A DNA stretch of 64,000 bases from Microvirga thermotolerans (GTDB lineage: Bacteria > Pseudomonadota > Alphaproteobacteria > Rhizobiales > Beijerinckiaceae): NCBI RefSeq assembly GCF_009363855.1, contig NZ_CP045423.1, positions 3,440,001 through 3,504,000 of the forward strand. Direction: 5' to 3'. Positions within the stretch are counted from its first letter, which is position 1. Every line of letters starts with the position of its first letter. Under the pieces are notes generated by a model, which had not been told where the DNA came from, did not search any database, and worked only from the letters and a program-made list of their open reading frames with translations. Both the position numbers and the translations under genes were made by a program. Positions 9,615-30,395 of this stretch are shown in pieces.

Positions 9615-10679
9615 ATGGCCGACGCGGAAGACAAAGAAAGCAAAACAGAACCAGCAACCGACAAGAAAATTCGCGATGCCATAGAGAAAGGCAACATTCC
9701 AGTCTCGAAGGAACTGCCTGTTTTCTCCTCAATCGTCGCATTGCTCATCATTCTTGTCTTCATCACAAAACAGAATGCGGCAAATCTGATCGGCAAACTT
9801 TCAATTTTCCTGGACGACCCCCGAAAATTCTCTCTCGTCACCGGAGGCGATGCAACGCTGCTGATCCAGTCGCTCGCACTGGAGGTCGGCCGCTTCCTCA
9901 CCCCGATCATCGTCGTTCTGACCTTGACGGGTCTTACGTCCTCGATCCTCCAGAACCTGCCGCAGGTTGTCTACGAAAGGATTCGTCCTCAATGGTCGCG
10001 CATATCGCCCATGGCTGGCTGGAGCCGAATCTTCGGGAAATCCGGCTTCGTCGAATTTCTCAAGGCTGTTTTTAAATTCTTCACGATTGCCATTGTTTGT
10101 CTTCTTCTTCTGAAATCAGAGCAATACAAGGTCGTGAACGCCATGTTCAGTGATCCGAGTCTCGTCCCGGAAATGATCCTGACGATGGCTATCCGACTGG
10201 TCTCGGCGGTCAGCATCGCGACCATCGTTCTCGTCGCCGGCGACTTGATCTGGGCGCGGTTCCGCTGGCACCGCGACCTGCGCATGTCCCGCCAGGAGAT
10301 CAAAGACGAATTCAAGCAGATGGAGGGAGATCCTCTGATCAAATCGAGACTGCGCTCGCTTGCCCAGGACCGCGCTCGGCGGCGAATGCTTGCGGCCGTG
10401 CCGCGAGCAACCGTTGTGATCGCCAATCCAACACATTATGCTATCGCCCTGCGTTACGATAGGCAGGAGACCAGCGCTCCTGTCGTCCTTGCCAAGGGAA
10501 CCGATCTCATTGCTCTGAAGATCCGTGAGACGGCGGAAAAGCATGGAGTACCTGTCGTGGAAGATAAGGCTCTTGCAAGGTCCATGTATGATCATGTCGA
10601 AGTGGATCGCATGATTCCGCCCGATTTCTACCGGGCCGTTGCCCAGATTCTGTTCTATATCTTTACGAGATCGAAGTGA
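9615..10679 (+). CDS. flhB: Flagellar export protein FlhB
   Basis: The 354-residue inner-membrane protein carries four membrane segments and a cytoplasmic C-terminal domain with the autocleavage motif NPTH, whose Asn is residue 271. FlhB is the substrate-specificity switch of the flagellar export gate and interacts with FliK, which is encoded at about 22 kb. The N-terminus begins MADAEDKESKTEPATDKKIR, typical of the family. Its stop overlaps the GTG start of the next gene by four bases. Confidence 0.97.
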   Translation: MADAEDKESKTEPATDKKIRDAIEKGNIPVSKELPVFSSIVALLIILVFITKQNAANLIGKLSIFLDDPRKFSLVTGGDATLLIQSLALEVGRFLTPIIVVLTLTGLTSSILQNLPQVVYERIRPQWSRISPMAGWSRIFGKSGFVEFLKAVFKFFTIAIVCLLLLKSEQYKVVNAMFSDPSLVPEMILTMAIRLVSAVSIATIVLVAGDLIWARFRWHRDLRMSRQEIKDEFKQMEGDPLIKSRLRSLAQDRARRRMLAAVPRATVVIANPTHYAIALRYDRQETSAPVVLAKGTDLIALKIRETAEKHGVPVVEDKALARSMYDHVEVDRMIPPDFYRAVAQILFYIFTRSK

Positions 10680-11143
10680 GTCCGAAAGAGAAAGAATTTG
10701 ATACGAGCCGAGCGGCGTCAGAGGCCGAACTTCTGCCTTACGAAAAGCTCCTCGCTTATAATATCAAGGATGTCGTCGGAGAAATTTGTCTGGTCGATGC
10801 CAGCATATTGATATCATATATCATAGATAATAAGCACGCTAACATTCATGATATTATTGAATCTTCGGCTGAACTTTTTTTCAAGGAAGGAACCTTGACG
10901 TATGGCCACGGAGCCGAGGTGAATTTCGAATGGGGCAAGGCTCCTGCCGTAATCCTGGATATGGAGTTCATCCATTCGGCAGCGACGGTTTTTTTCAAGC
11001 TGGTATTACACGGCTACTACGTCGGCGTGCAGATTCAGCGGATCCTCCTCAGCACAAAGACCGGAGACTCCGAGCAGGATCTCAAATGCTTCGAAGAAGC
11101 ATTGGCCAATGCACGGATCAAGCCGGTCACGTCCATTCTTTGA
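10676..11143 (+). CDS. Unknown 155-residue protein coupled to flhB
   Basis: I do not recognise this protein. It is soluble, acidic at the N-terminus, has no signal peptide and no clear domain. It starts with a GTG that overlaps the flhB stop (GTGA), implying translational coupling. The central part, about 10790-10880, is much more AT-rich than the neighbours and uses codons such as ATA and TTA that are rare around it. It may be a flagellar accessory carried with flhB or a later acquisition; neither can be decided from the sequence. Confidence 0.7.
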   Translation: MSPKEKEFDTSRAASEAELLPYEKLLAYNIKDVVGEICLVDASILISYIIDNKHANIHDIIESSAELFFKEGTLTYGHGAEVNFEWGKAPAVILDMEFIHSAATVFFKLVLHGYYVGVQIQRILLSTKTGDSEQDLKCFEEALANARIKPVTSIL

Positions 11144-11278: not shown

Positions 11279-11983
11279 TCAACCAAATAGAGCATCAATC
11301 TCGCTTTGCGACGTGCATCCGCTCTCGTTCTCAAGCGCAGGCCCGTTCAGCAGCGCCCTGTCGCCGGACTGCTCCGGCAGATCCAGAGTCGCAATCTCCT
11401 TGAAACTTTCCAGACCGCCCCAGATCTCGATCATCTGTCTGACACGCTCATCCACGAAGCGCATGGCGCCCACGACCTTGCCGATCCGCTGGCCCGTAAT
11501 GTCCTGAAAATTGCAGGCCTCGAATATGCTGATGACCTGGTCGCAAATCTCACGGGCAATCTCCCTGTCGTCTCCTGAAACACGGGCTGCGAGATTCCCG
11601 GCAAGTTCGTCGATCCTTTCCGAGGCCGCGAGAATGGTGTTCGTCGCAGCCTCCGTTCCCATGACGATCGCTCCGAGCTCGTCTGTCGCTCTGGCCATTT
11701 CACGGCCTCTGACGCCAGCATAATGCAATGTGGCGATCTCTTGCTTCGTACGCTGAATGGCGTCGGATATTGCGTCCAGTTCCACCTTGAGGCGCAGTGC
11801 CTCCTGCATGTCCCTGCGATGTTCCTCAAGAAGTGAATGGGACACCTTGTGTGCGGGCTCCAACAGCTCTCTAAGCGAGGCAATCGCCTCCATAATCTCA
11901 GCATGACGCCGTGCGTCGGTTGCATCTCCCATGGCGTCGGGAGAACGATGGGCCTCTATCCGAAAGCTTTTACGCGGTGTCAT
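11279..11983 (-). CDS. cheZ: CheZ-type CheY phosphatase, copy 1
   Basis: The 234-residue helical protein has the CheZ signature CNFQDITGQRIGKVVGAMRF, where D161 and Q165 have the same spacing as the catalytic Asp and Gln of enterobacterial CheZ. It should dephosphorylate CheY. The tail SQSEIDALFG resembles the CheY-binding peptide of FliM. The gene lies 17 bases downstream of cheY1 and is the last gene of the chemotaxis operon. A paralogue is cheZ2, about 1.37 kb upstream in the operon; the catalytic block is nearly identical in DNA while the flanks differ. Confidence 0.88.
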   Translation of the reverse strand: MTPRKSFRIEAHRSPDAMGDATDARRHAEIMEAIASLRELLEPAHKVSHSLLEEHRRDMQEALRLKVELDAISDAIQRTKQEIATLHYAGVRGREMARATDELGAIVMGTEAATNTILAASERIDELAGNLAARVSGDDREIAREICDQVISIFEACNFQDITGQRIGKVVGAMRFVDERVRQMIEIWGGLESFKEIATLDLPEQSGDRALLNGPALENESGCTSQSEIDALFG

Positions 11984-12000: not shown

Positions 12001-12387
12001 TTACTGTGCGCCGAGGACGGCAGCGATCTTGGACTGGAGGGTCTGTGCGTTGAACGGCTTGACGATGTAGTTGTTCACGCCGGCTTTCTTCGCCGCCACC
12101 ACGTTCTCCGTCTTCGCCTCGGCCGTCACCATGATGAACGGAAGGTCGCGCAACTGCTCGTCCGCACGCACGTGCTGCAGCAGTTCGTAGCCTGTCATCG
12201 GCTCCATGTTCCAGTCCGAGATCACAAGGCCGTACTTGCGCTCCCGAAGCTTCGCAAGCGCCGCCGTCCCGTCCGAGGCGTCGTCGATGTCCTTGAAGCC
12301 GACCTGCTTGAGGAGGTTGCGCAGAATGCGGACCATCGTCTGGTAATCGTCAACCACCAGAACCGGAATGGAATAGTCAATACTCAT
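12001..12387 (-). CDS. cheY: Chemotaxis response regulator CheY, copy 1 (identical to copy 2)
   Basis: The 128-residue single receiver domain has the acidic pair D13-D14, phosphoacceptor D58 in LVISDWNMEPM and a conserved Lys in YIVKPFNA. Phosphorylated by CheA, it would bind the motor switch. The ATG at 12387 follows GAAGG by eight bases. The whole coding region and 12 bases upstream are identical, base for base, to copy 2 (399 bases compared by eye). Confidence 0.96.
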   Translation of the reverse strand: MSIDYSIPVLVVDDYQTMVRILRNLLKQVGFKDIDDASDGTAALAKLRERKYGLVISDWNMEPMTGYELLQHVRADEQLRDLPFIMVTAEAKTENVVAAKKAGVNNYIVKPFNAQTLQSKIAAVLGAQ

Positions 12388-12399
12388 AATACGAGCCTT
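12001..12399. repeat. 399-bp perfect direct repeat, copy 1 (covers cheY1)
   Basis: Identical to 13370-13768 over its whole length; the match ends one base beyond the cheY stop on one side and 12 bases upstream of the start on the other. The offset between copies is 1369 bases. Confidence 0.95.
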
Positions 12400-12655
12400 C
12401 AATACTGGGCGAATGGATTTTAGGGCGTCGGCGCGAGCACTCGCTGCAGCCTTACTTGCGTAGTTCCTGCCAGACCCTGTTTGATTGGTCTAGCAAGAGA
12501 CATCCTCCAATGAAAGTCCTTGCCATGCCTCAAGTGGTCGCCGACCTCCCGTAATCGCCACTGACAGATGGCCGGAGACATATTGCGTCCTGCGCATCGA
12601 GACACCCGCATGTTGCCGAACGAGGTCGCCGCTGCGCAAGGAAACTCACCACAGG
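12388..12655. other. Spacer between cheZ2 and cheY1, no gene seen
   Basis: This 268-base stretch separates the two halves of the duplicated cheY-cheZ unit. Only short, unconvincing frames are present. The last 12 bases before cheY1 belong to the block identical with cheY2. No terminator with a T-run is visible, so readthrough from the upstream half is possible. Confidence 0.6.
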
Positions 12656-13351
12656 CTACTTGAAGAAAGCATCGATGTCTGCCTGTGACGTGCTTTTCTC
12701 CGTTTCCAGTGCAGGGCCGTTCAACAGAGCCTTGTCCCCTTCTCTGTCCGCTCTCTGAAGCTTCGGGACATCCTTGAAACTCTCGAGTCCTCCCCAGATC
12801 TCTATCATGCGCTCAACGCGCTCTTCGACGAAGCGCATGGCACCCACGACCTTGCCGATCCGCTGGCCCGTGATGTCCTGAAAATTGCAGGCCTCGAATA
12901 TGCCGACGATCTTCTCTCCAATCTGGAGCGCCATTTCACGGTCTTTTCCCGAAAGACGGGAGGCCAATTCTCCCGAAATTTCGTCGATCGCCTCGGTGGC
13001 AGTCAGAATCGAATGAGTTGCCGACTCTGTCCCCAGGACTACGGCGCCGAGTTCGTCGGTAACTCTGGCGATTTCTCGTCCTTGGGCGCCTGTGTAATGA
13101 AGCGTTGCAATTTCCTGCTTCGTGCGCTGAATGGCATCCGAAATGGCGTGCAGCTCCGCTTTCAGACGCTGTACCTCAAGAAGGTCGTGGCGCCGCTCTT
13201 CACTCATGTCCTCAGCCGACTGCGCCGGTTGCACATGCCTTCTCAATGAGGCAATGGCTTCCATGATTTCAGCGTGCCGTTGAACCTCATTCATGTCGAA
13301 GGGCGGGATGGAGCTTGCTTTCTCGTTGCTGCGGACCTTGGGCTTTCTCAT
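12656..13351 (-). CDS. cheZ: CheZ-type CheY phosphatase, copy 2
   Basis: The 231-residue protein shares the signature CNFQDITGQRIGKVVGAMRF with copy 1; the catalytic residues are D159 and Q163. Its tail is SQADIDAFFK, again like the FliM docking peptide. The N-terminal 45 residues and the linker before the tail differ strongly from copy 1. It lies 18 bases after cheY2. Retention of two divergent phosphatases behind two identical CheY proteins suggests dosage or different localisation; that is inference. Confidence 0.88.
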   Translation of the reverse strand: MRKPKVRSNEKASSIPPFDMNEVQRHAEIMEAIASLRRHVQPAQSAEDMSEERRHDLLEVQRLKAELHAISDAIQRTKQEIATLHYTGAQGREIARVTDELGAVVLGTESATHSILTATEAIDEISGELASRLSGKDREMALQIGEKIVGIFEACNFQDITGQRIGKVVGAMRFVEERVERMIEIWGGLESFKDVPKLQRADREGDKALLNGPALETEKSTSQADIDAFFK

Positions 13352-13369
13352 GGCCAGCGCCCTGGTGAT

Positions 13370-13756
13370 TTACTGTGCGCCGAGGACGGCAGCGATCTTG
13401 GACTGGAGGGTCTGTGCGTTGAACGGCTTGACGATGTAGTTGTTCACGCCGGCTTTCTTCGCCGCCACCACGTTCTCCGTCTTCGCCTCGGCCGTCACCA
13501 TGATGAACGGAAGGTCGCGCAACTGCTCGTCCGCACGCACGTGCTGCAGCAGTTCGTAGCCTGTCATCGGCTCCATGTTCCAGTCCGAGATCACAAGGCC
13601 GTACTTGCGCTCCCGAAGCTTCGCAAGCGCCGCCGTCCCGTCCGAGGCGTCGTCGATGTCCTTGAAGCCGACCTGCTTGAGGAGGTTGCGCAGAATGCGG
13701 ACCATCGTCTGGTAATCGTCAACCACCAGAACCGGAATGGAATAGTCAATACTCAT
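13370..13756 (-). CDS. cheY: Chemotaxis response regulator CheY, copy 2 (identical to copy 1)
   Basis: The protein and DNA are identical to copy 1: 128 residues, acidic pair D13-D14, phosphoacceptor D58, conserved Lys in YIVKPFNA. It follows cheW by 35 bases and precedes cheZ2. Because the two copies encode the same protein, they can add only expression level or robustness, not specificity. Confidence 0.96.
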   Translation of the reverse strand: MSIDYSIPVLVVDDYQTMVRILRNLLKQVGFKDIDDASDGTAALAKLRERKYGLVISDWNMEPMTGYELLQHVRADEQLRDLPFIMVTAEAKTENVVAAKKAGVNNYIVKPFNAQTLQSKIAAVLGAQ

Positions 13757-13768
13757 AATACGAGCCTT
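13370..13768. repeat. 399-bp perfect direct repeat, copy 2 (covers cheY2)
   Basis: Second copy of the repeat at 12001-12399. The sharp edges of identity at the gene limits, against diverged cheZ neighbours, suggest recent gene conversion or very recent duplication of this part only. Confidence 0.95.
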
Positions 13769-13791: not shown

Positions 13792-14277
13792 CTATGCTGC
13801 AAGCTGGGTCTCGAACTGAAGGACGGACTCCACGTTCAGAATAATCAGCAACCTGTCCTGAAGCTGGTAAACGCCTTCGGAAAGGCTTGCCCAGCGCGGA
13901 TCCATGTGGACGGGATTCGGTTGAAGGTCCTCAGGATTGAGCTTCAGAACCTCTCCGACTTCGTCCACGAGTAGCCCGTAAGCCTCGCCATTGTGCTCGA
14001 GGCCGACAGCCATGCGACGGTCCTTCAGTTCCTGTTCTGCCAATCGCAAGCGTTTGCGTAATGATATTGCCGTCACTACGCGACCACGAAGGTTGAGAAG
14101 ACCCGCAATCTCGGGAGAAGCAAGGGGCACCGACGTCATTTCGCTTGCAACGAAGACATCGTGAACCCGATCGATGGCCAGCCCAAGAAGTTGTCCCGCA
14201 ACCGTGACGGTCACGTAGTCGACTTGCCCGGAGAAGGATTTTCCAGCGGGATTGTTATTGGCTGCGGTCATGTTCAT
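13792..14277 (-). CDS. cheW: Chemotaxis coupling protein CheW
   Basis: The 161-residue protein is a single CheW domain: VDYVTVTVAGQLLGLAIDRV, then AGLLNLRGRVVTAISLRKRL and LLVDEVGEVLKL. It bridges receptors and CheA in the cytoplasmic array. Its ATG overlaps the cheA stop in an ATGA arrangement, so translation is coupled to cheA. cheY2 follows. Confidence 0.96.
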   Translation of the reverse strand: MNMTAANNNPAGKSFSGQVDYVTVTVAGQLLGLAIDRVHDVFVASEMTSVPLASPEIAGLLNLRGRVVTAISLRKRLRLAEQELKDRRMAVGLEHNGEAYGLLVDEVGEVLKLNPEDLQPNPVHMDPRWASLSEGVYQLQDRLLIILNVESVLQFETQLAA

Positions 14278-16922
14278 GCTGCCTCTTCAAGAGAACCGTG
14301 GAGTTCAGACAGAGCCGCGATCAGACCCCGCCGGTCGAACTTGGCGACGAGTTCCGTTACCTGAAGCTTGTGAGCTTGCGCGATTTGTCGAGGATCGTGC
14401 TTCACTGTGAGACCGATGACCGGAAGCTGTGCATAGCGTGACGAGGACCGCAAGGTTGCGATCAGATCAAAGCCCGAGCGATCCGGCAGGTCCAGTTCCG
14501 TTACAAGAATGTCGGTTGCATTTCCTGAGGTCAGGATCTGCAGAGCCTCGGAGGCTGTTGCCGCTGCCTGAACCTTGTAACCCGAGGCCTTTAATACCGG
14601 GGTCAACATATCGCGGAAGAATGCGGATCCATCCACAAGGAGAATGGACTTGGCCGCACTGTTACTTCCCGGATGAGACGAGCGCATCCAGGCTTCTGCA
14701 ACCAACGGCAGGTAATGCGCGATATTGACGACCTCCGTCGCCCGCCCCCGGATCACGGCAGACCCCACCAGGTCGGAGCGATCGGCTACGAGCTCGATGT
14801 CGAGCTTGTCCTCGACAATGTCGACGATCTCGTCGACGGCAAGGCCCATGGCGAAATCCTCGTCCGAAAAGACGACAAGAGCCTGCATACCCTCTCGCTT
14901 TATCGTCAGATCGCCATCCGAAGGCACAAGAGGCATTAGGCGGCCGCGATACTGAACAAGCGGACGACCTCCCAGCCATTCGATCGTCGAAGCATCGATC
15001 TCTTCGAGGCGGGTGACAAGCGACAATGGCACGGCCTTCAGGCTTTCGCCGCCACCGCGGAATACGAGCAGCGTCGTCGTTTCCTCGTCCAGGACGTTCG
15101 ACTGCTCGAAACCGGCGTCGCCCTGGAATTGCCCACCCTCCGTTCCCGAACCCACCATCCTTGCCAGGCCGTTCGGATCGATAATCAGAACGACTGCGCC
15201 GTCGCCGAGAATAGTGTTGCCCGAGAAAAGCTGGATATGACGCAGCTTGGACGACATAGGCTTGACGACAATTTCCTCGGTGTGGAACACGCCGTCGACC
15301 AGTATCCCGAACCTCTGGCGTCCCACTTGCGTCACCACGACGAAGCCTTCATTCACCTCCTCTTCGCTGCTCGTGTTCAGGACCTTCGACAGCGGTACGA
15401 TCGGCAGAAGGCGGTCGCGGAGTCGCAGAACCGGCGTTCCATTGATCCGCTCGATGGCGTGCTCGGATCCGGGAGTCACTCGTACCAGCTCAAGGACGGC
15501 AACCTGAGGAATCGCATAACGTTGGTCCTTGGATGAGACGATCAGCGCCGCAACGATGGCAAGCGTAAGCGGGATCTTGATCGTAAAGGTCGTTCCACGC
15601 CCAGGCTCCGAGCGAATATCGACAGTACCGCCGATCAACTCGATGTTTGTCTTGACAACATCCATTCCGACGCCGCGTCCGGACACGGACGTAATGGCCG
15701 CAGCGGTCGAAAAGCCTGGGTGAAAGATGAACTTTGCCACCTGAGCATCGCTCATCCGCTCAACTTCCGCTTCGGAGGCGATCCCTCGCTCGACCGCCTT
15801 TCTTCGGATCGCGGAAAAGTTCAGGCCACGACCGTCGTCGGCAATCTCGATCGTGATTGTCCCGCCTTCATGATAAGCATTGAGACGGATCGTCCCGCGC
15901 TCTGGCTTACCGGCCGCTTTGCGCTCCAGAGGCGCCTCGATCCCGTGGTCTGCCGAGTTCCTCACCATGTGGGTGAGCGGGTCCTTGATAACCTCAAGGA
16001 CTTGCCGATCGAGCTCCGTATCAGCTCCCTGCATGACAAGCTCGATCTTCTTGGAGAGTTCCGCTGAAAGATCGCGAACCACGCGCGGCAGCTTCTGCCA
16101 AGCATTGCCGATGGGCTGCATGCGCGTGCGCATCACTCCCTCCTGCAGTTCAGCCGTCACGTGAGACAAGCGCTGCAGGGGAACCTTGTAGCTGCTGTCG
16201 TCTACCCGGCGCGAGATCTCAAGGAGCTGGTTCCGTGTCAGGACGAGCTCAGACACCATGGTCATGAGATGCTCGAGCGTGTCGACGTTTACGCGGATTG
16301 TCTGAACCTTGCTCGCAGCCGGTTCGTTCCCCTCCTCCAGTGCTGTCGTTGAGGTTGACGCTGCAGTCTCATCCACGCGCGCGGGGACCGCCTGCGGCTT
16401 GGAGACGTCAGGTCCAGGAGCCTCACGGAAAGCCCTCTCCAGCTCGTCGAGGGAAACCTCCCCGGGCAGGAGAGCCCGCTCAAGGACTTGATAGGTCAAT
16501 GTCCCGACTGTGGCAGTGGACTCCCGCACCGGTGCTTCGGATGGCGCTTCCTCTGCAGCCATCGCCTCGAGCGCATCGATAAGATCTTCATCGGAACCTT
16601 CCGGTTCCGCGGCATGCCTCTCAAGCTCGGCCAGGATATCCTTGATCCGATCCAGCGTCGAGAGAATGAGCGAAACGGCGGGGGTCGTCACCGGCATCCC
16701 GTCACGGAATTTTCCCATGAGGGTTTCCGCGGCGTGAGCCAGCGCCTCGAGTCGCGGCAGTCCGAGAAATCCGCAGGTTCCCTTGATGGTATGGACGAGT
16801 CGAAAGATGTTGCTCAGAATGGCTTTGTTGTTGGGGTCCTGCTCAAAGCGCACCAACTCTACGTCCACTGTATCGAGGTGCTCCGCAGTTTCGGTCAGGA
16901 ACTCACGCAGAAGGTCGTCCAT
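14274..16922 (-). CDS. cheA: Chemotaxis histidine kinase CheA with two CheW-like domains and a C-terminal receiver
   Basis: The 882-residue protein has an HPt domain with phospho-accepting H44 in FRLVHTIKG, a dimerisation helix pair (about 210-275), an ATPase domain with HMVRNSADHG, ADDGRG and GRGVGMDVV, a CheW domain (about 450-590), a second degenerate CheW-like domain (about 610-740) and a receiver domain from residue 759. In the receiver the phosphoacceptor position, 45 residues after D764, is E809, and the second acidic residue is G765, while T839 and K861 are kept. No separate P2 CheY-docking domain is obvious. The gene heads cheA-cheW-cheY2-cheZ2-cheY1-cheZ1, 78 bases after mcp. Confidence 0.95.
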   Translation of the reverse strand: MDDLLREFLTETAEHLDTVDVELVRFEQDPNNKAILSNIFRLVHTIKGTCGFLGLPRLEALAHAAETLMGKFRDGMPVTTPAVSLILSTLDRIKDILAELERHAAEPEGSDEDLIDALEAMAAEEAPSEAPVRESTATVGTLTYQVLERALLPGEVSLDELERAFREAPGPDVSKPQAVPARVDETAASTSTTALEEGNEPAASKVQTIRVNVDTLEHLMTMVSELVLTRNQLLEISRRVDDSSYKVPLQRLSHVTAELQEGVMRTRMQPIGNAWQKLPRVVRDLSAELSKKIELVMQGADTELDRQVLEVIKDPLTHMVRNSADHGIEAPLERKAAGKPERGTIRLNAYHEGGTITIEIADDGRGLNFSAIRRKAVERGIASEAEVERMSDAQVAKFIFHPGFSTAAAITSVSGRGVGMDVVKTNIELIGGTVDIRSEPGRGTTFTIKIPLTLAIVAALIVSSKDQRYAIPQVAVLELVRVTPGSEHAIERINGTPVLRLRDRLLPIVPLSKVLNTSSEEEVNEGFVVVTQVGRQRFGILVDGVFHTEEIVVKPMSSKLRHIQLFSGNTILGDGAVVLIIDPNGLARMVGSGTEGGQFQGDAGFEQSNVLDEETTTLLVFRGGGESLKAVPLSLVTRLEEIDASTIEWLGGRPLVQYRGRLMPLVPSDGDLTIKREGMQALVVFSDEDFAMGLAVDEIVDIVEDKLDIELVADRSDLVGSAVIRGRATEVVNIAHYLPLVAEAWMRSSHPGSNSAAKSILLVDGSAFFRDMLTPVLKASGYKVQAAATASEALQILTSGNATDILVTELDLPDRSGFDLIATLRSSSRYAQLPVIGLTVKHDPRQIAQAHKLQVTELVAKFDRRGLIAALSELHGSLEEAA

Positions 16923-27594: not shown

Positions 27595-28773
27595 CTAGCT
27601 GCGGAACAGCGAGAGGATGCTCTGGGTGTTGCCGTTGGCGATGCTGAGCGCTTGCACGCCGAGCTGCTGCTGAACCTGCAGCGCCTTCAGACGGGTCGAC
27701 TCCTCCTCCATGTCTGCATCGACCAGTGTGCCGAGACTGCGCTCGTTCGCCTTGATCAGCGACTCGACGAAGGCGGTCTGCGAGGAGATCTGCTTCTTGT
27801 TGGCACCCAGCGTCGTCGCCGCGTCGGTCATGGCACCCAGCGCCTTGTCGACCACCTGGATGTAGGCGCGCAGCTTCGACAGGTCCTGGTTCTGAACCGC
27901 CGAGATGTCCATCTTGCTGATCGACAGCTCATAGTGCTTCAGAAGGCCCTTCTCGTCCTTGGCAAGAACGCCCCACTCCTTGTCGAGCAGGCCGCCCTTG
28001 CCGTCAACGGCCGCCACGGCGCTGCCGTTCGCCGTGTCGATCGCCGTCTGGTAGGTCTGCTGTGCGGTCTGCCAGTTCGACTTCGCCGTCTCGTAGGTGC
28101 TCAGGTCGGCCGCGCTCTTGCCGCTGGCTTCCCAGGTCGCCTGGGCGGACTCCCAGTTCGTCTTCGCGTTGTCGTAGGCGGTCTGGTCGGCCGCGGCCAG
28201 GGTCGCGTCCGCAGCCGCGGTGGCATCGGCCGCCGTCTGGTTCTTGTCGTACAGCTTCGTCTCGTCCACCGAGATCGTGATCGTGTCGACGGTGATGTTC
28301 CCATCGATACGCGTGAACGAGGCGACGATCTTGCGGTCCGAGACGTAGTTGCCGGCGGCGGAGTCGGTGGAGAGCCAGTTCTCGCCCGACACGACCGAAG
28401 CGTCGGCCGTTTGCTTGAGCTCCTTCAGCTTGGCGCTGATTTCGGTCTGGATCTTCGCGCGGTCGACGTTCGGCGACATCGCGGCCGTCAGCTTGGCCTG
28501 GATGTCCTTCATCAGCTCGATCGAGCGGTTCAGGCCGTTGAAGGCGGTGTCGACGGAGTTGGCGCCGAGGCCGAGAGCGTCCTTCACCGCACCGAGCGAG
28601 CCGTTGTCGGCGCGGATCGTGGTGGCGATCGACCAGTACGCTGCGTTGTCGGAAGCGTCCGCCACCTTCAGGCCGGTGGAGATCCGGCTGCTGGTCTGGT
28701 CGAGTTGCCCTGCGATGCTCTTCAGCGTCGTCAGGGCGGTCATGGCGGAGGCATTCGTCAGAAGGCTAGACAT
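27595..28773 (-). CDS. fliC: Flagellin, copy 1
   Basis: The 392-residue protein begins MSSLLTNASAMTALTTLKSI and ends with the flagellin C-terminal D0 helix (LSIANGNTQSILSLF). These helices polymerise into the filament. The central region (about residues 170-290) is an Ala/Thr-rich insert that holds a 27-residue duplication: AYDNAKTNWESAQATWEA (199-216) and TYETAKSNWQTAQQTYQTA (226-244). Codon use is strongly biased to G or C endings, as expected for an abundant protein. It is nearly identical to copy 2 in DNA; the main difference is a short block around residues 155-161. Confidence 0.97.
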   Translation of the reverse strand: MSSLLTNASAMTALTTLKSIAGQLDQTSSRISTGLKVADASDNAAYWSIATTIRADNGSLGAVKDALGLGANSVDTAFNGLNRSIELMKDIQAKLTAAMSPNVDRAKIQTEISAKLKELKQTADASVVSGENWLSTDSAAGNYVSDRKIVASFTRIDGNITVDTITISVDETKLYDKNQTAADATAAADATLAAADQTAYDNAKTNWESAQATWEASGKSAADLSTYETAKSNWQTAQQTYQTAIDTANGSAVAAVDGKGGLLDKEWGVLAKDEKGLLKHYELSISKMDISAVQNQDLSKLRAYIQVVDKALGAMTDAATTLGANKKQISSQTAFVESLIKANERSLGTLVDADMEEESTRLKALQVQQQLGVQALSIANGNTQSILSLFRS

Positions 28774-28846
28774 GGACTGTCCCTTTGATTGAGCAGAGGA
28801 ATTGGGCAGACCGAAACATTGGCCTTCCCTTGTTGTCAAAGCTGTA

Positions 28847-29136: not shown

Positions 29137-30312
29137 TTAGCGGAACAGCGAGAGGATGCTCTGGGTGTTGCCGTTGGCGATGCTGAGAGACTGCACGCCG
29201 AGCTGCTGCTGAACCTGCAGCGCCTTCAGACGGGTCGACTCCTCCTCCATGTCCGCATCGACGAGCGTGCCGATCGAGCGTTCGTTCGCCTTGATCAGCG
29301 ACTCGACGAAGGCGGTCTGCGAGGAGATCTGTGTCTTGTTGGCACCCAGTGTCGTCGCCGCGTCGGTCATGGCGCCTAGCGCCTTGTCGACCACCTGGAT
29401 GTAGGCGCGCAGCTTCGACAGGTCCTGGTTCTGAACCGCCGAGATGTCCATCTTGCTGATCGACAGCTCATAGTGCTTCAGAAGGCCCTTCTCGTCCTTG
29501 GCAAGAACGCCCCACTCCTTGTCGAGCAGGCCGCCCTTGCCGTCAACGGCCGCCACGGCGCTGCCGTTCGCCGTGTCGATCGCCGTCTGGTAGGTCTGCT
29601 GTGCGGTCTGCCAGTTCGACTTCGCCGTCTCGTAGGTGCTCAGGTCGGCCGCGCTCTTGCCGCTGGCTTCCCAGGTCGCCTGGGCGGACTCCCAGTTCGT
29701 CTTCGCGTTGTCGTAGGCGGTCTGGTCGGCCGCGGCCAGGGTCGCGTCCGCAGCCGCGGTGGCATCGGCCGCCGTCTGGTTCTTGTCGTACAGCTTCGTC
29801 TCGTCCACCGAGATCGTGATCGTGTCGACAGAAACCGCACCGCCTTCACGGGTGAAGGAGGCGACGATCTTGCGGTCCGAGACGTAGTTGCCGGCGGCGG
29901 AGTCGGTGGAGAGCCAGTTCTCGCCCGACACGACCGAAGCGTCGGCCGTCTGCTTGAGCTCCTTCAGCTTGGCGCTGATTTCGGTCTGGATCTTCGCGCG
30001 GTCGACGTTCGGCGACATCGCGGCCGTCAGCTTGGCCTGGATGTCCTTCATCAGTTCGATCGAGCGGTTCAGGCCGTTGAAGGCGGTGTCGACGGAGTTG
30101 GCGCCGAGGCCGAGAGCGTCCTTCACCGCACCGAGCGAGCCGTTGTCGGCGCGGATCGTGGTGGCGATCGACCAGTACGCTGCGTTGTCGGAAGCGTCCG
30201 CCACCTTCAGGCCGGTGGAGATCCGGCTGCTGGTCTGGTCGAGTTGCCCTGCGATGCTCTTCAGCGTCGTCAGGGCGGTCATGGCGGAGGCATTCGTCAG
30301 AAGGCTAGACAT
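29137..30312 (-). CDS. fliC: Flagellin, copy 2
   Basis: The 391-residue protein has the same start MSSLLTNASAMTALTTLKSI, D0/D1 helices and central insert with the 27-residue duplication as copy 1. Differences by eye are few: EGGAVSV in place of IDGNITV near residue 156, a Lys to Thr, a Leu to Ile and an Ala to Ser change in the C-terminal part, and loss of the last residue. The near identity along 1.17 kb points to recent duplication or gene conversion. It has its own promoter module and terminator. Confidence 0.97.
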   Translation of the reverse strand: MSSLLTNASAMTALTTLKSIAGQLDQTSSRISTGLKVADASDNAAYWSIATTIRADNGSLGAVKDALGLGANSVDTAFNGLNRSIELMKDIQAKLTAAMSPNVDRAKIQTEISAKLKELKQTADASVVSGENWLSTDSAAGNYVSDRKIVASFTREGGAVSVDTITISVDETKLYDKNQTAADATAAADATLAAADQTAYDNAKTNWESAQATWEASGKSAADLSTYETAKSNWQTAQQTYQTAIDTANGSAVAAVDGKGGLLDKEWGVLAKDEKGLLKHYELSISKMDISAVQNQDLSKLRAYIQVVDKALGAMTDAATTLGANKTQISSQTAFVESLIKANERSIGTLVDADMEEESTRLKALQVQQQLGVQSLSIANGNTQSILSLFR

Positions 30313-30344
30313 GGGCTTGTCCCTATAAAAGCAACACATTTGGC

Positions 30345-30395
30345 GGGACATACCGGACTTTCACCGGTGTGGCAGGGCGGCATCATGCCTTCGAA
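30345..30395 (-). promoter_or_regulatory. Conserved flagellin leader element with hairpin, gene 2
   Basis: This is the counterpart of the block upstream of flagellin 1. The stem core ACCGG/CCGGT is kept, while the outer pairs and loop differ. It starts 32 bases before the ATG. The distance from the flagellar box (57 bases) is nearly the same as in gene 1 (56). Confidence 0.5.

Follow-up and report, generated by a model that had tools for sequence, protein, structure and literature searches.

Within-genome identity or near-identity of a tandem cheY pair beside diverged cheZ copies in seven Microvirga genomes

The che locus of Microvirga thermotolerans

The window analysed here is a stretch of 64,000 nt from Microvirga thermotolerans (contig NZ_CP045423.1, positions 3,440,001 to 3,504,000), and it contains a chemotaxis (che) locus in which two identical cheY genes are each followed by a cheZ gene. 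The window genome, called G000 below, is a single contig of 3,823,049 bases. All genes of the locus lie on the minus strand, in the order cheA-cheW-cheYa-cheZ2-cheYb-cheZ1, and coordinates are those of the window. The upstream copy, cheYa, follows cheW at 13370..13756 and encodes a response regulator of 128 aa, recognised from its open reading frame (ORF), a Pfam Response_reg match and a phmmer match to CheY structures. The downstream copy, cheYb, lies at 12001..12387; it was located as an ORF and by genome search, and encodes the same 128 aa with the same Pfam domain. It had been predicted that 399 nt covering cheY are identical at 12001-12399 and 13370-13768, with an offset of 1369, and both the repeat search and sequence comparison confirm this (399/399). 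Copies a and b of the block each consist of the gene, stop codon included, and the 12 nt of leader that precede its ATG, and the adjoining base differs at either end. A search of the whole genome with the 399 nt returned these two places at full length and, in addition, a partial match of 32 nt. Direct repeats of at least 60 nt across the 64 kb (repeat finder, exact seed 20) were the cheY pair, a flagellin pair and the cheZ pair.

In an alignment of the window CheY to solved CheY structures the VDD, SDWN, TAEA and KPF stretches are kept, which we take to have a functional role in the phosphorylation pocket. Given the receiver domain, this pocket and an operon in which cheA and cheW adjoin, both proteins can be assigned to CheY; their score against the NCBIfam CheY equivalog is 150.3, under the cut-off of 189.

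The two cheZ genes are cheZ2 (12656..13351, 231 aa), a diverged paralogue in the upstream unit, and cheZ1 (11279..11983, 234 aa), which clusters with cheZ genes present in single copy in other Microvirga. Their starts, at 13351 and 11983, are offset by 1368 as originally predicted. Both contain the Pfam CheZ domain (41.3 bits for CheZ2 and 41.0 for CheZ1 against a cut-off of 30.7). In alignments with the solved CheZ structure 1kmi, whose E-values are weak (0.052 for CheZ1, 0.0068 for CheZ2), the FQDITGQ of both copies, presumably the catalytic residues of CheZ (DxxxQ motif), is aligned with FQDLTGQ. Scores of the two copies against the NCBIfam CheZ equivalog are 27.7 and 31.4, far below the cut-off of 257. 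A comparison of identical runs identified a tract of 31 nt in the core of cheZ2 (12873..12903) that equals one in the core of cheZ1 (11499..11529), possibly a short conversion tract. Between cheZ2 and cheYb is a spacer of 268 nt (12388..12655), which is poorly conserved in an alignment among four genomes with the pair; scanning it revealed no sigma-70-type promoter pattern and no terminator pattern.

Upstream of the pair are cheW (13792..14277) and cheA (14274..16922), both recognised as ORFs with Pfam matches, the latter encoding a C-terminal receiver domain. Flagellar genes, with names assigned by eye, adjoin the locus. Between cheZ1 and flhB (also named by eye) we observed a reading frame of 155 aa on the plus strand (10676-11143), which had no Pfam match at an E-value of 0.001.

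Identity of cheY within and between genomes

A CheZ2 search over 48 genomes of Microvirga, a genus of soil bacteria, gave a CheZ match in 45. The loci of 29 of these 45 were fetched and used in trees, and elsewhere the tandem was judged by the positions of CheZ matches alone. On this basis the tandem cheY-cheZ2-cheY-cheZ1 is present in 7/48 genomes (G000, G029, G031, G001, G012, G063 and G069), with the same gene order wherever contigs permit it to be read. Another genome, G005, carries the unit once, with cheA-cheW-cheY-cheZ intact. In an rpoB tree of 24 genomes the pair genomes apparently do not form one clade, several forks of this tree being weak. A set of 80 named loci, many from other genera, contained no second cheY (>55% identity, >80 aa) or cheZ (>80 aa) within flanks of at most 5 kb. 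A CheZ2 search of 298 family genomes gave a match in 98; among the matches listed, the strong ones alone were inspected.

Two further genomes were left out of the pair count. In G071, contigs C1 and C15 (loci L184 and L180) both end within cheY and share an exact overlap of 97 nt. This genome may hide an eighth cheY pair, as concealed identical copies could produce such ends; the CheZ2 search found no cheZ2 in it. The relevant contig of G024 starts just before cheY. By eye, this contig start (L038, 1-92) resembles the end of a chemoreceptor gene and not cheW, and cheA is on another contig.

The check proposed with the original prediction was whether cheY pairs are more similar within than between genomes, and this was so in all seven genomes on which the comparison was run. 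A cheY DNA tree of 36 rows pairs each genome's copies as sisters in 7/7 cases. Forcing all cheYa or all cheYb copies into a clade cost 593 and 592 log-likelihood units, respectively (approximately unbiased (AU) test, p 2.3e-56 and 3.1e-57; the constraints did not bind two sets of identical rows). Synonymous divergence (dS) over codons 6-126 is 0 within five of the seven genomes, 0.012 in G012, where the copies differ at one synonymous site, and 0.024 in G069. Between genomes, dS ranges over 21 cheYb comparisons from 0.40 (G063/G069) to saturation, and 31-78% of synonymous sites differ. As a control, unlinked cheY genes are not homogenised: they share 306/378 positions in G023 and 280/378 in G031. 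Thus the paralogues are closest within genomes, synonymous sites are homogeneous and, as described below, the duplication is older than the species split, which together constitute the pattern of concerted evolution.

The original prediction also had the identity stop at the gene limits. It does end near the gene edges, but the exact limits are not kept in every genome. Upstream of the start codon, the identical stretch continues for 12 nt in G000, 11 nt in G029 and 3 nt in both G012 and G069. In G031 and G001 the start codons differ in their first base, GTG in cheYa and ATG in cheYb (L050, L051 against L034, L036), and identity sets in with the second base; in both genomes that first base is the sole mismatch to cheYb among the 128 nt compared on the separate contig carrying the cheYa 5′ end. 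The cheYa of G063 begins at a contig end. Downstream, identity extends past the stop codon by 0 nt in G000 and G012, 1 nt in G029 and G069, 9 nt in G001 and 11 nt in G063, and in G031 it ends within the stop codon. These values were read by eye for G012 (both edges), G063 and the upstream edge of G069. The leaders shared by the two copies in G000 and in G029 are non-coding, and the leader of G000 differs from that of G029. The limits of the identical tracts are therefore those of the remaining homology and not exactly those of the gene.

Divergence of cheZ and age of the duplication

The wide divergence predicted for the cheZ copies was borne out. The repeat finder reports the pair as 76% identical over a 300-nt stretch, and along the aligned genes just two blocks stand out from a generally low identity. 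A tree built from 36 CheZ proteins of 29 genomes places the seven CheZ2 proteins in one clade (support 100/99) and groups the seven CheZ1 proteins with 22 single-copy CheZ proteins. The CheZ2 clade is recovered with support of 100/100 in a DNA tree from which the core was removed (17 rows) and of 96/96 in a tree with outgroups. Because CheZ2 forms a single clade apart from CheZ1 and the single-copy proteins, both units predate the split of these species. As judged from these trees, the source of both cheY-cheZ units is one old duplication, in agreement with the original prediction that the cheZ copies stem from a single tandem event. Rooting with other genera was uninformative as to the single-copy genomes: outgroup branches were too long, the outgroup did not form one group and the alternative rooting had an AU p of 0.159. 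These genomes may have lost the unit or never acquired it, either being compatible with the rooting, and the single-copy state may be ancestral.

The picture of a converted cheY beside diverging phosphatases needs one amendment. The cheZ genes have diverged overall, but they are not exempt from homogenisation, as they share short identical tracts that are specific to individual genomes. The longest identical run between cheZ1 and cheZ2 over the whole gene has a mean length of 42.3 nt within genomes versus 15.9 nt between them (maximum 23). By genome it is 31 nt in G000, 74 in G029, 14 in G031, 48 in G001, 26 in G012, 53 in G063 and 50 in G069. When genome labels were permuted, the true labelling alone of 5040 reached the observed sum of runs. 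Five of the runs start in the core (codons 155-177), and the run of G063 starts at codon 75. Core identity between the two copies (codons 155-181, with FQDITGQ) averages 89.2% within genomes versus 80.7% between, again a level reached by 1 of 5040 permutations.

Probable gene conversion, its rivals and known systems

We consider it highly probable, on comparative sequence grounds, that the cheY pair has been homogenised by recurrent recombinational copying, that is gene conversion, in each of the seven lineages. Such conversion had been proposed for cheY from the window, and it is supported by the likeness of all seven within-genome pairs, synonymous sites included. An old tandem duplication of the cheY-cheZ unit within a cheA-cheW-cheY-cheZ operon would have given rise to cheYa-cheZ2-cheYb-cheZ1. 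The cheY copies, in direct orientation and ~1.37 kb apart, would then overwrite each other repeatedly by homologous recombination, a pathway that is presumably active at the present day. Conversion tracts would be limited upstream by the unrelated leaders and downstream by the diverged 5′ ends of cheZ, where homology stops. The cheZ genes would escape wholesale copying and diverge into two phosphatases, with their conserved blocks, chiefly the core, still receiving short tracts.

CheY must fit both CheA and the motor switch, so that a uniform CheY pool may be tolerable or useful; we infer a benefit to the cell from pairing such a pool with two distinct CheZ proteins, which could divide the work of dephosphorylation. 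A stronger version would make the pair a maintained device, in which conversion enforces a uniform CheY messenger, two diverging CheZ proteins split its removal (e.g. by acting at separate sites or moments) and the identical repeats allow scarless loop-out of cheYa-cheZ2, making the second phosphatase a variable trait of populations. We hold this to be improbable.

Several observations, including two that also speak for rivals discussed below, weigh against homogenisation by gene conversion. In G069 the copies differ at three positions over codons 6-126 (two synonymous, one non-synonymous); there is also an N gap within its cheYa, next to which codon 5 holds one further difference, and the piece of cheYa after the gap alone was used. 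Regarding the cheZ tracts, G031 has none, its longest run being 14 nt, and the runs of G000 (31 nt) and G012 (26 nt) stay below the maximum among cheZ1 orthologues (36 nt). The core window (codons 155-181) was picked after viewing the cheZ identity profile. For codons 70-100 identity is 0.751 within and 0.729 between genomes (308 of 5040), which is not significant overall, and in the rest of the gene, beyond these two blocks, the signal is weak (0.592 versus 0.580, 270 of 5040). Moreover, a tree of the core only (codons 150-200) is weakly supported and compatible with a clade of all cheZ2 (AU p 0.452).

The direct repeats of ~400 nt are also ready substrates for unequal crossing-over between sister chromosomes, the first of the two points just mentioned. 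One- and three-unit arrays would re-contract, replacing copies without strict gene conversion, and we allow this a small but real chance. Single-copy relatives such as G005, which the rpoB tree places with weak support close to pair genomes, resemble the products of loop-out, and the 22 single-copy cheZ genes fall on the cheZ1 side of the tree; however, the single-copy state may simply be ancestral, as the rooting allows. None of the 29 genomes in which the locus was read showed a three-unit array, although contig ends could conceal one. The short tracts shared by cheZ1 and cheZ2 within genomes need conversion and are not easily explained by crossing-over.

It is very unlikely that the identity arises from assembly, with two diverged cheY genes collapsed to one consensus. 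The second point concerns this reading: contigs end at the cheYa edge in G031, G001 and G063, and part of the identity there could be assembler collapse. The gap in the cheYa of G069 and the breaks within cheY in G071 point the same way. Nevertheless, G000 and G029 are single contigs, each with an identical pair, and in G012 both copies lie >5 kb inside a contig and differ at one synonymous site. Contig breaks at repeat edges are the expected product of truly identical copies in short-read assemblies.

Still less probable is that each species duplicated the unit recently and on its own. Separate events of this kind would yield identical cheY genes per genome, but they are refuted by the single CheZ2 clade and the deep difference between CheZ1 and CheZ2 within every genome, unless repeated re-insertion of cheY alone, always at one site, is assumed. 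Strong selection for equal copies, which the original prediction had offered as an alternative to conversion, can practically be dismissed in the form of purifying selection or codon preference acting alone, for although CheY is strongly conserved between genomes (non-synonymous divergence, dN, 0.005-0.074), synonymous sites are identical or nearly so within genomes and diverged between them, which rejects selection at the protein level alone, and the shared leaders of G000 and G029 are non-coding.

The locus presents genes that were duplicated together, side by side, and met opposite fates: cheY was homogenised in each lineage known to carry the pair and cheZ diverged except for short tracts. 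This contrast amounts to a built-in control for what decides between conversion and drift, and for how tracts are bounded. Two cautions follow for the genus, namely that short-read assemblies break at the cheY locus and that cheY trees of Microvirga are unusable for dating the duplication.

Concerted evolution of bacterial duplicates is already known, and the cheY pair is clearly a new case of a known process. Among the titles and abstract openings listed in searches of the open-licence literature, none dealt with identical cheY copies or with cheY gene conversion, which is not proof of absence. A survey of concerted evolution in prokaryotes names 26 genes, including tuf, the amo genes and fla (PMC6053082). 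The duplicates of tufA/tufB and the other surveyed genes resemble cheY in being closer within than between genomes, synonymous sites included, with a duplication that predates the species (PMC6053082). Its Table 1, with 19 bacterial genes, does not include cheY, and neither 'chemotaxis' nor 'response regulator' occurs in the main text (PMC6053082). The cheY case differs from the surveyed genes in that the co-duplicated neighbour diverged and serves as an internal control.

The tandem flagellin genes (fla), surveyed there for Alteromonadales (PMC6053082), are like cheY both motility-related and in tandem. For tandem flagellins independent duplication is possible, whereas for cheY it is excluded by the linked cheZ2. 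The window itself contains tandem flagellin genes, named by eye, on the minus strand (27595-28839 and 29137-30351), which are identical at 1162/1215 positions in a mosaic of perfect and 87-95% stretches. Paired flagellins of G029, G001 and G005 are 91-95% identical within a genome versus 77-88% between genomes. In G031, two copies 15 kb apart on one contig are 93% identical, and a third elsewhere is at 83-86%, the between-genome level; of the other pair genomes, G012 yielded a single copy, and the comparison omitted G063 and G069. The tandem flagellins therefore lean toward within-genome likeness, less strictly than cheY.

Lastly, Agrobacterium fabrum offers a second alphaproteobacterium with two CheY proteins, CheY1 and CheY2 (PMC8225110). 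There the CheY proteins are diverged and functionally distinct (PMC8225110), whereas at the window locus the CheY proteins are identical and the CheZ proteins have diverged, which is the opposite outcome.
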